This document shows, in pieces, positions 7,780 to 11,367 of a DNA stretch of 37,294 bases. The notes under the pieces were generated by a model, which saw nothing but the letters and a program-made list of their open reading frames with translations, did no database searches and was not told the DNA's origin. Position 1 is the first letter of the stretch; every line of letters begins with the position of its first letter. The DNA is from Candidatus Nanopelagicales bacterium (GTDB lineage Bacteria > Actinomycetota > Actinomycetes > S36-B12 > CAIYMF01): assembly GCA_017848795.1 (NCBI GenBank), contig JAFIHG010000015.1, positions 1-37,294 of the forward strand, read 5' to 3'. The position numbers were made by a program, and so were the translations under genes.

Positions 7780-8778
7780 TTGCCGGTCGACCTCACGCTC
7801 GCCCAGCTGAGCAACGAACTGGTCTACGCGTCCATGGCGGCGTACGCCTGCGCCCTCGTCGCGTTCGCCGCATGCCTCGCCGCGCGGCCCGGCCGTGCGC
7901 TGGAGCCGGCCGCCGCGCCCGCCGGCGCGCTCGCCGCCCAGGGCGAGGGCGGCGTCGGCACGCTGACGCGGGTCACGAGCGGGCCACCCGCCCCGCCGGC
8001 GCCGCCCGCCTCCCCGGGCCGGCGCGCCGGCAACATCGGGCTGGCGCTGACCTGGCTGGCGACGCTGCTGCTGGGCGGTGGCGTACTGCTGCGCGGGCTG
8101 TCGGTGAGCCGGCCGCCGTTCGGGAACATGTACGAGTTCTCGATCGCCTCCGCGCTGGCGATCAGCGCCGCGTTCCTCGTGCTCTCGCTGCGGCGCGACC
8201 TGCGCTTCCTCGGGCTGTTCGTCACGCTGCCGGTGCTGCTGACGCTCGGCCTTGCCATCACGGTGCTCTACACCGACGCCGAGCAGCTGATGCCGGCGCT
8301 GCAGTCGTACTGGCTGGTCATCCACGTCACGCTCGCCACCATCTGCGGCGGCGCGCTCTGCGTGGCGGCCGCACTGACGGTGCTCTACCTGGTCGTCGAC
8401 GTCGGCGAGCGCCGTACCCGGGCCGGTCGCGCCTTCCGCCTCGCACCGCTCGTGGACCGGCTGCCGTCCGCCGCCCGGCTCGACGCGCTCTCCTACCGCG
8501 TCACCGCCTTCACCTTCCCGCTCTGGACGTTCACGATCATCGCCGGCGCGATCTGGGCCGAGGCGGCCTGGAGCCGGTACTGGGGCTGGGACCCCAAGGA
8601 GGTCTGGGCGTTCATCACCTGGGTGGCGTACGCCGCGTACCTGCACGCGCGGGCGACGGCCGGCTGGAAGGGGCGGCGCGCGGCGTATCTCGGCCTGGTC
8701 GCCTTCGCGTGCTTCCTGTTCAACTACTACGGCGTGAACATCTTCTTCAGCGGCCTGCACTCCTACAGCGGGCTCTGA
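7780..8778 (+). CDS. ccsB: cytochrome c biogenesis protein CcsB (CcsA/ResC family)
   Basis: This polytopic membrane protein is the haem-handling subunit of the System II synthase. The diagnostic Trp-rich haem motif reads WSRYWGWDPKEVWAFITW, the WD-domain signature of haem-handling proteins. Conserved His residues follow in YLHARAT and near the C-terminus (GLHSY), plus one in VIHVTLATICGG. About eight hydrophobic helices are visible in 332 residues, and an Ala/Pro-rich cytoplasmic linker (about residues 38-80) separates helix 1 from the rest. TTG at 7780 is chosen because GAAGGGA lies 7 nt upstream and no closer ATG/GTG gives a full first helix. It is the last gene of the operon and is convergent with the next gene across 29 nt. 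Confidence 0.92.
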   Translation: MPVDLTLAQLSNELVYASMAAYACALVAFAACLAARPGRALEPAAAPAGALAAQGEGGVGTLTRVTSGPPAPPAPPASPGRRAGNIGLALTWLATLLLGGGVLLRGLSVSRPPFGNMYEFSIASALAISAAFLVLSLRRDLRFLGLFVTLPVLLTLGLAITVLYTDAEQLMPALQSYWLVIHVTLATICGGALCVAAALTVLYLVVDVGERRTRAGRAFRLAPLVDRLPSAARLDALSYRVTAFTFPLWTFTIIAGAIWAEAAWSRYWGWDPKEVWAFITWVAYAAYLHARATAGWKGRRAAYLGLVAFACFLFNYYGVNIFFSGLHSYSGL

Positions 8779-8807
8779 GCGCGGACCGTCCCGTCGGCGC
8801 GGGCGCG

Positions 8808-9221
8808 TCAGGCGCGGGCTTCCGGGTGCGGGTCGTCCTCGGGGCTGCCGGCGGCGCGGCGCCGGCGCATCTTGCGCTCCCAGGCCGCCTGGTCCAGCCG
8901 CTGCAGGAACTCCGGGTCGTCGTCCGGTGCGACCGGCCCCCGCCGTCGCCCGGGCAGCCCCGGCACGCGCGGGGAGTACGGGCGGTCGCTGCCGCCGCCC
9001 CCGCCACCGCCGCCCCAGCCGCCGCCGCGGTCGTACGGGTCGGTGCGCGGCCGGCCGAGGAACAGCCAGGCGAGCGCGCCGAGCAGCGGCACCACCACGA
9101 TGAGCAGCAGCCAGAGCAGCTTGGGCAACGAGCGCGCCTGGTTCGACGGCGTCATCAGCGCGTCGATGAGGGCGTAGATCATGATCACGAAGGGGACCGC
9201 GAACAACAGGAACCTGCCCAT
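8808..9221 (-). CDS. small membrane protein with PLDc_N-type domain
   Basis: This 137-residue protein has two predicted membrane helices (residues about 3-20 and 33-53). The segment LPKLLWLLLIVVVPLLGALAWLFLGRP matches the short phospholipase-D-nuclease N-terminal (PLDc_N) domain. No phospholipase catalytic HKD motif is present, so it is not an enzyme of that type. A Gly-rich stretch (about 65-80) and a charged Arg/Asp tail follow and are probably cytoplasmic and disordered. ATG at 9221 is chosen because GGGGAG lies 6 nt upstream and the helix follows at once. Function unknown. A promoter, a small ORF and a hairpin lie upstream on the same strand. Confidence 0.75.
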   Translation of the reverse strand: MGRFLLFAVPFVIMIYALIDALMTPSNQARSLPKLLWLLLIVVVPLLGALAWLFLGRPRTDPYDRGGGWGGGGGGGGSDRPYSPRVPGLPGRRRGPVAPDDDPEFLQRLDQAAWERKMRRRRAAGSPEDDPHPEARA

Positions 9222-9319
9222 CGCAACTCCCCTCGTCCTGCGCACCGCCCGTGCGCGCGTTGCTACCAGCGTAAGCCCGCCGGCCGCGCGGCGTCGGCTC
9301 GAGGTCGTAGCAACGACGA

Positions 9320-9360
9320 CGGCCACCGCGCCCGCCTCGTGGGCGGTCCGGCGGTGGCCG
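9320..9360 (-). terminator. strong hairpin, possible terminator of a short minus-strand transcript
   Basis: CGGCCACCGC (9320-9329) and GCGGTGGCCG (9351-9360) form a perfect 10-bp stem, which can extend inward through CGCCC/GGGCG with a small bulge. It lies 36 nt beyond the stop of the small minus-strand ORF at 9396-9467 and about 100 nt before the PLDc_N gene. There is no T-tract on either strand, so intrinsic termination would have to be of the T-less kind often proposed for high-GC genomes. It could instead be an attenuator or a structural end for a small RNA. Confidence 0.45.
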
Positions 9361-9395
9361 TCAGGATCGGGTGGCGGGTACCCCGCCCCGCGATG

Positions 9396-9467
9396 TCAGC
9401 GAGTGCGCTTGTCGGACGTGCGGTCGGCATACCTGACGAAGACGCGGGCGACCTCGAGGGTCAGCAT
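9396..9467 (-). CDS. candidate 23-residue small protein or leader peptide
   Basis: The ORF encodes a 23-residue, Arg- and Asp-containing peptide starting MLTLEVARVF and ending DKRTR. It has an ATG preceded by a purine-rich GTGAGAG (spacing 3 nt) and GGAAGG (spacing 11 nt), a good promoter about 44 nt upstream of the ATG, and a strong hairpin downstream. I do not recognise the peptide. It contains no run of a single amino acid that would mark a classical attenuation leader. The same signals could define a small RNA of about 190 nt rather than a protein gene. Confidence 0.35.
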   Translation of the reverse strand: MLTLEVARVFVRYADRTSDKRTR

Positions 9468-9516
9468 TACTCTCACTACCTTCCGATGGTTCCCCGGTGG
9501 GTGACCGGGCAGGACC

Positions 9517-9522
9517 TACGAT
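9517..9522 (+). promoter_or_regulatory. -10-like hexamer upstream of the Lrp/AsnC gene
   Basis: TACGAT on the plus strand overlaps the minus-strand -10 TATCGT (9518-9523) almost base for base. It would start transcription near 9530, about 60 nt before the regulator ATG at 9589. No -35 is visible. A weak call resting on the TANNNT pattern. Confidence 0.3.
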
Positions 9523-9546
9523 AGCAAGGCTACTGACGAGTATCAA
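9518..9546 (-). promoter_or_regulatory. sigma-A-type promoter, minus strand
   Basis: On the minus strand TTGATA (9546-9541) and TATCGT (9523-9518) are separated by exactly 17 nt. They match the TTGACA and TATAAT consensus at 5/6 and 4/6 positions, the best housekeeping promoter match I see in the window. Transcription would begin near 9511 and run into the small ORF at 9396-9467 and then the PLDc_N gene. Confidence 0.55.
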
Positions 9547-9588
9547 AACGGGTTCCGATGCAGGAGCTCGCATCTGCCTAGGAACGGG

Positions 9589-10074
9589 ATGCTGATGGCC
9601 ACGTGGGACGGTGTCGACCGCGCACTGCTCGCGGAGCTGCGCCGCAACGGCCGGGCGACGTACGCCGAGCTCGCCCGGCTGGTCGGGCTCTCCGCGCCGA
9701 GCGTGCAGGACCGGGTACGCCGGCTCGAGGAGCGCGGCGTGATCGCCGGGTACCAGGCGGTGCTGCCGCCGGCCGCGCTGGGGCTGGACGTCACGGCCCT
9801 GGTCGGGATCGCCCTCGGCGAGCAACCGGGCCAGCAGGACGTGGCCGACCGGCTCGCGCAGGTGCCGGAGATCGAGGACTGCTACTTCGTCGCCGGGGAG
9901 GACTCCTTCTTCGCCAAGGTCCGCGTCGCCGACGTCGCCGCCCTCGAGCGCACCCTGGCGCGGCTGCAGGGCATCCCCGGGGTGGCGCGCACGCGCACCA
10001 CCGTGGTGCTCTCCACCCGGTGGGAGGGACGCCCGCAGGAGCTGCCCGAGCACCCCGTAGCGTCGTCCTCATGA
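9589..10074 (+). CDS. Lrp/AsnC family transcriptional regulator
   Basis: The 161-residue protein starts with an AsnC-type helix-turn-helix (DRALLAELRRNGRATYAELARLVGLSAPSVQDRVRRLEERGVI), followed by the RAM/AsnC ligand-binding alpha-beta domain (about residues 70-145), where VPEIEDCYFVAGEDSFFAKVRV is the typical GxxD-like strand segment. Lrp-family proteins form octamers or hexadecamers and respond to amino acids or related small molecules; the ligand is unknown here. AGGA lies 6 nt before the chosen ATG at 9589, and another in-frame ATG follows at 9595. Its TGA overlaps the next ATG (ATGA), coupling it to the DUF4229-type protein. Confidence 0.9.
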   Translation: MLMATWDGVDRALLAELRRNGRATYAELARLVGLSAPSVQDRVRRLEERGVIAGYQAVLPPAALGLDVTALVGIALGEQPGQQDVADRLAQVPEIEDCYFVAGEDSFFAKVRVADVAALERTLARLQGIPGVARTRTTVVLSTRWEGRPQELPEHPVASSS

Positions 10075-10397
10075 GCACGCCAGCGCCGCCGCCACCGCCG
10101 CCCGGCGAGGAGCCGCCGCCCGCACCGCAGGCGCGTGCCGGACGCGCGCACCCGTTCCTGCTCTACAACCTGGCCCGGCTGACCGTGTTCGCCATCGTGC
10201 TCGGGGTGTGCTACCTGCTCGGCTTCCGGGGGCTGCCGCTGCTGCTCGTGTCGCTGCTCGTCAGCGGGGCGATCTCCTTCGTCGTGTTGCGGCGGCTCGC
10301 CGACTCGGCCGGAGCGAGCTTCGTCGGCGCGTGGCGGCGGATGAACACGCGGATCGACGAGCGCTCGCGCTCGGAGGACGACCAGGACCCGTCCTGA
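10071..10397 (+). CDS. DUF4229-type small membrane protein
   Basis: The 108-residue protein has a Pro-rich N-terminus (residues 1-22), two membrane helices (about 30-52 and 55-75) and a charged tail rich in Arg, Glu and Asp. The segment HPFLLYNLARLTVF and the pattern AISFVVLRRLAD resemble the actinobacterial DUF4229 family, often found beside menaquinone genes. No function is known. It is translationally coupled to the Lrp/AsnC gene by ATGA and convergent with menA. Confidence 0.72.
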   Translation: MSTPAPPPPPPGEEPPPAPQARAGRAHPFLLYNLARLTVFAIVLGVCYLLGFRGLPLLLVSLLVSGAISFVVLRRLADSAGASFVGAWRRMNTRIDERSRSEDDQDPS

Positions 10398-10409
10398 GCC
10401 CGGCCGGTC

Positions 10410-10465
10410 GCGTGCAGTGCAGCCTGGCCGCGTTCAGTGCAGCCGGCCGCGTTCAGTGCAGGGCG
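10410..10465. repeat. three tandem 19-20-nt units at the 3' end of menA
   Basis: Three head-to-tail units with the core GCG(T)TCAGTGCAG start near 10410, 10430 and 10449. The third contains the menA stop (TCA on the plus strand, 10453-10455) and the last two codons. The other two carry copies of the Leu-His-stop end just beyond the gene. The array lies between the convergent DUF4229 and menA genes, so extra copies do not disrupt either. Replication slippage is the simplest origin. Confidence 0.75.
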
Positions 10466-11367
10466 GCGTCGGCGAGCACGCCGGCCGCGAGCGTGAGCGC
10501 GTACGCCAGCGTGAGGCGCCCGGTGCCGGACAGCACGGGGACGAGCTCGCGACCGGTGACGCCGCGGCGCACCCGCCGTACGAGCGGCACCGCCAGCGGG
10601 GACGAGGCGAACGCGAGCAGCGCGCCGCGGGGCCAGGCGTGCGCACCGGTGCCCGTGAGGCCGAGCAGCCCGACGGCGAGCACCACGAGGTACGCACCGG
10701 CGAGGCAGCCGAGGTAGAGCCGGCGGGTCCCGCCGTCGCCCAGGCGCACCGCCAGCGTGCGCTTGCCGTGCGCGGTGTCGCCCGGGATGTCGCGCAGGTT
10801 GTTCGCGACGAGGATCGCCACGATCAGCAGCCCGGTACCGGTCGCGAGGACGACGGCGAGCGCGGTGATGGCGCCGAGCTGCACGTACGCCGTACCGGCG
10901 GTCGCGACGAGCCCGAAGAACACGAAAACGAACAGCTCGCCCAGGCCCGCGTACCCGTACGGGCGCGGGCCCCCGGTGTAGAACCAGGCGGCCGCGACGG
11001 CGGCGGCACCGACGGCGAGCAGCCACCAGGCCCCGGTGAGCAGCACGAGCGCCAGCCCGGCGACGGCTGCGACGGCGAACGCGAGCAGCGCCGCGACGAG
11101 CACCTCGGACGCGGACGCGAGCTGCTGCCCGACGAGGCGGACCGGGCCGACCCGTACCGCGTCCGTGCCGCGCACGCCGTCGCTGTAGTCGTTGGCGTAG
11201 TTGACCCCGACCTGCAGGGCGAGCGCGACGACGAGCGCGATCGCGGCGCGGTCCCACACGACCGCGCCCTGGTAACCCGCAACGGCGGTCCCGACGAGCA
11301 CCGGGGCGAGGGCGGCAGGCAGCGTACGGGGCCGGGCGCCCGCCACCCAGTCCCGCGCGCTCGCCAC
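10453..11367 (-). CDS. menA: 1,4-dihydroxy-2-naphthoate polyprenyltransferase
   Basis: MenA is an integral membrane UbiA-family enzyme that joins DHNA to a polyprenyl diphosphate to give demethylmenaquinone. The first Asp-rich motif is NYANDYSDGVRGTD and the second is NNLRDIPGDTAHGKRT, both needed for Mg-diphosphate binding. About eight to nine hydrophobic helices cover the protein, and the substrate segment RPRTLPAALAPVLVG is at the N-terminus. GTG at 11367 is preferred (304 residues): GGGAGG lies 9 nt before it, whereas the in-frame ATG at 11376 directly abuts that site and would have no spacing. It runs convergent to the DUF4229 gene and downstream of menE. Confidence 0.93.
   Translation of the reverse strand: MASARDWVAGARPRTLPAALAPVLVGTAVAGYQGAVVWDRAAIALVVALALQVGVNYANDYSDGVRGTDAVRVGPVRLVGQQLASASEVLVAALLAFAVAAVAGLALVLLTGAWWLLAVGAAAVAAAWFYTGGPRPYGYAGLGELFVFVFFGLVATAGTAYVQLGAITALAVVLATGTGLLIVAILVANNLRDIPGDTAHGKRTLAVRLGDGGTRRLYLGCLAGAYLVVLAVGLLGLTGTGAHAWPRGALLAFASSPLAVPLVRRVRRGVTGRELVPVLSGTGRLTLAYALTLAAGVLADAALH

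Follow-up and report, generated by a model that had tools for sequence, protein, structure and literature searches.

Organisation of the locus

The window, by which we mean the whole 37,294-nucleotide stretch of DNA analysed here, carries an Lrp/AsnC regulator gene on the plus strand (9589-10074; Pfam PF01037 and PF13404) and a PLDc_N gene on the minus strand (8808-9221; Pfam PF13396). Between them, divergent from the regulator gene, lies a minus-strand ORF of 23 codons (9467-9396) that starts with ATG and encodes the peptide MLTLEVARVFVRYADRTSDKRTR followed by a stop codon; it is called from the ORF list, its homologues and its codon pattern. The PLDc_N gene is the downstream neighbour of this small gene and is placed outside its unit. 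A promoter scan located the -35 element TTGATA at 9546-9541 and, after a 17-nt spacer, the -10 element TATCGT at 9523-9518, both on the minus strand; transcription of the small gene is predicted to start near 9511. Between positions 8000 and 11000 this is the sole sigma70-like site, where shuffled sequences lead one to expect 0.1, and under a stricter rule it is one of two sites in the whole 37 kb on both strands. A ribosome-binding-site-like GGAAGG (9484-9479, minus strand) precedes the ATG by 11 nt, and AAGG stands at the equivalent site in two related genomes, G001 and G012.

Folding of the predicted RNA reveals two hairpins on the minus strand. The first, of 6 bp (CCCGGT-caccc-ACCGGG, 9509-9493), lies at the 5' end and is absent from an earlier description of this DNA made from the letters alone (hereafter the initial annotation). 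The second follows the stop codon and is a probable terminator lacking a U-run; it has a perfect 12-bp outer stem (9362-9351 with 9329-9318) plus an inner stem, with a folding energy of -37.4 kcal/mol and a z-score of -3.2 against 20 shuffles. A classical intrinsic terminator was not called at any site by a terminator scan of 8000-11000, consistent with the U-less 3' stem. As a whole, the 213-nt strand of the predicted RNA barely beats shuffled sequences in folding (z -1.5; 14 of 200 shuffles fold as well). The initial annotation had proposed the TTGATA-17-TATCGT promoter, a purine-rich ribosome-binding region, the 23-codon ORF and a perfect 10-bp hairpin; the first three are borne out, the promoter at a level beyond chance, and the hairpin is likewise present, with the length corrected to 12 bp.

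The surroundings, read from translations, comprise a CcsA-like ORF before the small gene, a MenA-like ORF (11376-10453) on the other side, and MenD-, MenF- and MenE-like ORFs further on, so that the region resembles a locus for cytochrome-c maturation and menaquinone.

A family of small proteins linked to an Lrp gene

No second copy of the peptide is present in the genome of the window (next best E 0.2). In a set of 60 genomes, full-length relatives occur in G001, from the same genus (MFTVEIARVFVRYFERDTDRRNR, 61% identity), and in G012, from the same family (57%), and in none of the other genomes; a close orthologue of the Lrp protein (69-73%) is confined to the same three genomes. The ORF is divergent from the Lrp gene in both relatives. 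A profile built from these three peptides reached the family of the window only. Of a class-wide sample of 394 genomes, 73 contain an Lrp orthologue at E 1e-42 or better, and we inspected the upstream regions of these together with those of G001 and G012 (75 loci). At 41 of the 75 loci, spread over eight actinobacterial families (f1, the family of the window, 3 loci; f24, 15; f25, 12; f30, 4; f14, 3; f41, 2; f20 and f26, 1 each), there is a small ORF that is divergent from the Lrp gene and whose N-terminal motif is shared, and no copy of the peptide is detectable at the other 34. Conservation in related genomes, which the initial annotation had made a touchstone for the peptide, is thus seen at 61% in G001, 57% in G012 and across these 41 loci.

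Profiles that leave out one family at a time give this ORF, on the divergent strand, as their best match at 41 of 41 loci. Sets of 60-900 shuffled regions, in which two-base units were shuffled in blocks and not by a strict dinucleotide shuffle, contain between 0 and 21 that equal the score. L062 fares worst (21 of 900), and the counts are 2 of 180 for the window, 1 of 180 for G001 and 0 of 180 for G012. Held-out scores are low for L038 (6.5 bits; 2 of 180 shuffled regions as high) and L039 (8.0 bits; 1 of 180), the N-terminus of L107 carried one wrong letter in this test, and L119 (f12) was found at 8.1 bits yet scored absent. In f16 (L054, L066, L071) the held-out profiles find the positional small ORF at none of three loci, which were scored absent. 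The f16 ORF upstream of Lrp is small and basic, ends in LRRLxxRxxAR and occupies the position of a family member; it could be either a diverged relative or a replacement.

The linkage holds in the reverse direction. A profile of 22 peptides (A3) has matches at E 0.01 or better in 59 of the 394 whole genomes. The strong ones, at E 9.6e-7 or better, number 39 in 39 genomes, and all 39 adjoin the Lrp orthologue in divergent orientation within about 220 nt, as does the ORF of the window, with none elsewhere; adjacency was judged by eye from coordinates. The remaining matches, from E 7.6e-5 upward, sit within longer open frames, of at least 129 aa, and are taken as chance. As A3 was built from Lrp-linked copies, distant unlinked relatives may escape it. 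Mapped on a tree of the 75 Lrp proteins, the distribution of the ORF takes 7 changes to explain, vs 24.8 in shuffles. At one f24 locus (L073, genome G308) the ORF upstream of Lrp is decayed but recognisable (VYTIGMTYAHMRADSLV...), and the promoter core and 5' hairpin described below are damaged. Weak matches in f7 (L025, L026, L028, L031), whose start is alike (MFTLNIGIVVVRNADIPTTSG), were set aside because the fetched DNA held no Lrp gene. The small f7 frame starting MFTLNIGIVVVRNADIPTTSG, at about 1501-1560, recurs in several genomes of one genus. At L071, L120, L122, L124 and L125 a short helix-turn-helix gene (LFRVDPKTVTRWA...GHRRFRE), whose product we take to be BldC-like, lies beyond the Lrp promoter on its far side.

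The neighbours, again from translations, differ among families. G012 keeps the order of CcsA, small ORF and Lrp and has PLDc_N inverted, on the opposite strand and convergent with the ORF; this inversion was noted beside positions 9373-9410 of the window and L008. The order in f30 is ResB-like, CcsA-like, PLDc_N-like, ORF and Lrp, with a MenA-like gene further on. In f24 a UbiX-like gene lies beyond the ORF and is oriented towards it, followed by a UbiA-like gene, and an MqnE-like radical SAM gene sits on the far side of Lrp; f16 has UbiA-like, positional ORF, Lrp and MqnE-like genes in that order. Taken with the window, these arrangements indicate that the pair of Lrp and ORF keeps company with menaquinone genes, whichever of the two pathways these belong to.

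Selection on the reading frame

Family peptides measure 23-48 aa and share the motif [YF][TS][LI]ExA...[IVM]..L...A and a basic tail. The most constant positions among the 41 are A7 (41), E5 (40, in an alignment anchored on E5, which biases that column), L14 (38) and A18 (37). The peptide of the window, LTLEVARVFVRYA, agrees with the broader N-terminal motif [YFVL][TS][LIV]ExA...[IVM]..L at T3, L4, E5, A7 and V11, and has A at position 14, a place taken by L in 38 of the 41 peptides. Its 23 residues stop short of the Arg-rich C-terminal tail that most others possess. Lengths are 23 residues in the family of the window, 27 in one further family and 39-48 in the others, and the family of the window is therefore a short form.

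The codon-substitution pattern, a check proposed in the initial annotation, points to selection in the ORF frame in four families and does so weakly in f1. Over codons 2-24, pN/pS in the ORF frame is 0.26 in f24 (15 rows), 0.41 in f25 (12), 0.19 in f30 (4) and 0.33 in f14 (3), with values of 0.95-2.79 for the two alternative frames in these families. Beyond codon 24 the f24 tail is without such constraint (1.11). The family of the window offers three rows only, and its value of 0.61 (0.81 and 2.71 in the other frames) is weak alone, as is that of f41 with two rows (0.69; 0.98 and 1.65). Judged from the substitutions, the ORF is probably translated in its own frame. With hydrophobic residues conserved at positions 4, 7, 11, 14 and 18, the peptide may fold as a short amphipathic helix that has a single binding face. 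Its hydrophobic moment exceeds that of shuffled peptides (at about 2-5%) in f1, L095 and L116, and does not in f24, f25, L110, L101 and L107.

A conserved core with facing -10 elements

Facing the Lrp/AsnC gene on the plus strand is a second -10 element, TACGAT (9517-9522), which forms with TATCGT the symmetric 7-mer TATCGTA (9517-9523), within which the two readings overlap fully; facing, overlapping -10 elements with symmetry are one mark of bidirectional promoters. The initial annotation had noted this overlap and suggested that the two directions may compete, and the idea gains support from the relatives, where a facing core is kept. The core TAnnATCnnAGG, with facing -10 elements inside it, recurs between the small ORF and the Lrp gene across the 41 ORF-bearing loci. 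Counts of 40 for T1, 38 for A2, 39 each for A5 and T6, 37 for C7 and 40 for A10 are inflated, since sites were picked for their resemblance to the core, and six of the 41 cores were positioned manually. Towards the small gene the core gives TAGAAT as the -10 element in 26 of the 27 f24 and f25 loci, and towards Lrp it gives TATGAT, TACGAT or TAGATT. The -10 hexamer TATCGT of the window falls within the core, 3 nt off its aligned position, and the register of the relatives would correspond to TGCTAT (9526-9521). The -35 element TTGATA shows no conservation at fixed spacing among relatives. With each start predicted 7 nt past its -10 element, the two RNAs of the window would begin at 9511 and 9529, 18 bp apart.

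Loci of f24 that have lost the ORF are informative here. At all 15 f24 loci with an ORF, TA precedes GAATCtAAGG (one of them reads GAATCGAAGG). Among the 23 f24 loci without one, five retain the full GAATCTAAGG, and in all five the TA is replaced (AC, AT, AT, AC and CT); L073, the ORF pseudogene, retains the TA in a damaged core, and the remaining 17 have no good core. The five TA-less loci group together as a clade in the tree of Lrp proteins (support 85/84), so they may reflect a single loss event. A further locus, L108 (f13), fits the pattern poorly, as it has a near-complete core including the TA, yet the ORF was not found. Loss of the TA together with the ORF is the best evidence for a shared promoter, and from comparison of these sequences we consider it likely that the small gene and the Lrp gene are started from a bidirectional promoter with facing -10 elements.

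Hairpins in relatives and alternative explanations

Just past the core, f24 loci can form a 7-bp helix in which 97.1% of 105 cells are paired, U-G pairs included, and four of the seven pairs show compensatory changes on both sides. None of 500 shuffles matches the paired cells or the covariation score. Kinship alone can beat shuffles without any structure, so a control with a slid partner is safer, and it reaches at most 55.2% pairing. One locus (L074) is misaligned in the helix alignment, which counts against the helix. More widely, the 34 nt past the core fold at a mean of -10.6 kcal/mol in 36 loci, vs -6.3 kcal/mol in shuffles; five of the 41 loci are without the motif under the automatic rule used for this set, and L113 is misplaced in it. 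At several f25 and f14 loci the 5' hairpin is weak or absent and the peptide is kept. The 3' hairpin reaches z below -2 in 14 of 41 loci and is therefore not generally conserved: the window and G001 (-37 kcal/mol) have a strong one, as do several f25 and f14 loci, and G012 and most of f24 have none. Covariation, a check proposed in the initial annotation, speaks for the 5' hairpin through the compensatory changes in f24. L103 (f25) has, about 6-54 nt past the stop codon of the small ORF, a nearly perfect stem-loop (about 20 bp, -41 kcal/mol).

The dyad past the -10 element might be an operator for the Lrp protein, that is, a DNA element and not an RNA hairpin. Binding to dyads close to the regulator's own promoter is common among Lrp proteins, which speaks for this reading. 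Against it, the stem sequence varies among families with pairing kept, and the U-G pairs of f24 are possible only in RNA of the small gene's strand, which makes an operator unlikely. We give still less credence to the idea that the locus serves mainly to make a regulatory or dual-function RNA, whose structure, chiefly the 5' hairpin, would matter more than the peptide. The compensatory changes in f24 and the better average folding of the 36 loci would fit such an RNA, but the frame-specific selection on the ORF, the f25 and f14 loci that keep the peptide with a weak or absent hairpin, and the complete lack of Rfam matches in the window and 10 related loci all speak against it.

A leader peptide or attenuator controlling PLDc_N is very improbable. 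It is suggested by the window and G001, where ORF, strong hairpin and PLDc_N are collinear on one strand; against it, PLDc_N lies on the opposite strand in G012, the UbiX-like gene of f24 runs towards the ORF, and the codon pattern keeps an N-terminal helix motif in place of single-amino-acid runs. With the flip in G012 and other neighbours elsewhere, the ORF is not consistently upstream of and collinear with PLDc_N, and we reject this explanation. A chance ORF beside the Lrp promoter, with only promoter and hairpin DNA conserved, would suit the shortness of the ORF and the weak frame statistics of f1 and is hardly credible given the held-out profiles that find the ORF (41/41), the pN/pS values of four other families and the presence of all 39 strong copies at a single type of locus; unless the alignments are in error, these results refute it. 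Small protein, PLDc_N leader and regulatory RNA were the three options of the initial annotation; the first is upheld by homologues and codon pattern, the leader is contradicted by G012 and by the UbiX-like gene of f24, and the codon pattern speaks against a solely regulatory RNA, even if the transcript may gain a further role from its 5' hairpin.

A model for the small gene

Conservation, frame-specific selection, strict linkage to Lrp, a conserved facing core and, in one family, a 5' hairpin make up the computed support. On this footing the ORF is very probably a real small-protein gene, conserved in several actinobacterial families. Our best explanation as a whole, which we hold to be quite likely, is that it is a gene of its own for a small basic protein, sharing a bidirectional promoter with the Lrp/AsnC gene and giving an RNA separate from PLDc_N. 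The small gene would stand back to back with the Lrp/AsnC gene of a menaquinone and cytochrome-c-maturation locus, both being started from facing, overlapping -10 elements. Its RNA would begin with a stem-loop, continue through the ORF and, in the genus of the window, end at the strong hairpin, and so be separate from PLDc_N. RNA polymerase may take the core in either direction, such that both promoters fire and each excludes the other; regulator and small protein would then compete for starts and share control by Lrp, whose autoregulation could set the dose of both products. The amphipathic helix, with the Arg-rich end, may have as its partner the Lrp protein itself, or else polymerase or nucleic acid at Lrp targets.

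What the peptide does can be proposed only tentatively. Possibly, and this is the simplest reading of the sequences, the peptide is a helical protein made alongside the menaquinone-locus Lrp protein and serves as a partner or modulator of that protein or its complexes. A bolder and somewhat less likely proposal is a new family of dedicated Lrp/AsnC partners, made from one bidirectional promoter with mutually exclusive halves, with the ratio of regulator to modulator set at transcription start and tuned by the 5' hairpin. If true, a partner-protein system would couple respiration genes to a nucleoid-associated regulator across actinobacteria. A conserved protein of 23-48 residues outside the searched family libraries offers a handle on the role of the menaquinone-locus Lrp/AsnC protein, and the Streptomyces-like decay series, in which ORF and TA are gone and the Lrp half is kept, is a ready test of selection on the directions of a bidirectional promoter.

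Comparison with known systems

The peptides searched against Pfam, NCBIfam and PHROGs matched no family, and Rfam at gathering score gave no matches for the window and 10 related loci; on these results we reject a known protein family and a known RNA family, respectively. The similarity of one f25 peptide to Pfam DUF1192 (PF06698; E 0.011, 16.3 bits against a cut-off of 25.5) was also rejected and is read as chance arising from helical composition, since it falls below the curated cut-off and concerns one of seven peptides. Within open-licence PMC papers the peptide strings are absent, and no description of a small gene at the Lrp/menaquinone locus was found.

Among characterised small proteins, TrpM (SCO2038) modulates tryptophan biosynthesis in Streptomyces (PMC5036795) and by its description resembles the present peptide as a small actinobacterial protein encoded within a biosynthetic locus; locus and operon arrangement differ. 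For the regulator, the nearest counterpart is SCO4493, listed as an AsnC-family transcriptional regulator in the menaquinone synthesis cluster of S. coelicolor (PMC6190872) and found in the nucleoid proteome of that organism, its function being listed as unknown (PMC3784963). The setting is alike in that f24 also has an Lrp gene beside an MqnE-like radical SAM gene. From gene order we infer that f24 may be Streptomyces and its Lrp protein SCO4493. The passages on SCO4493 in these two papers mention no small ORF.

The closest parallel for the promoter is the class of bidirectional promoters described by the Grainger group (PMC10268837), in which 18 bp is the commonest spacing of starts in bacteria. 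There the defining feature is a pair of mapped divergent starts 7-25 bp apart; the starts of the window are predicted, and its likeness in spacing rests on the putative positions 9511 and 9529, 18 bp apart. The likeness extends to the symmetric TANNNTA of the window and to the core kept in its relatives.
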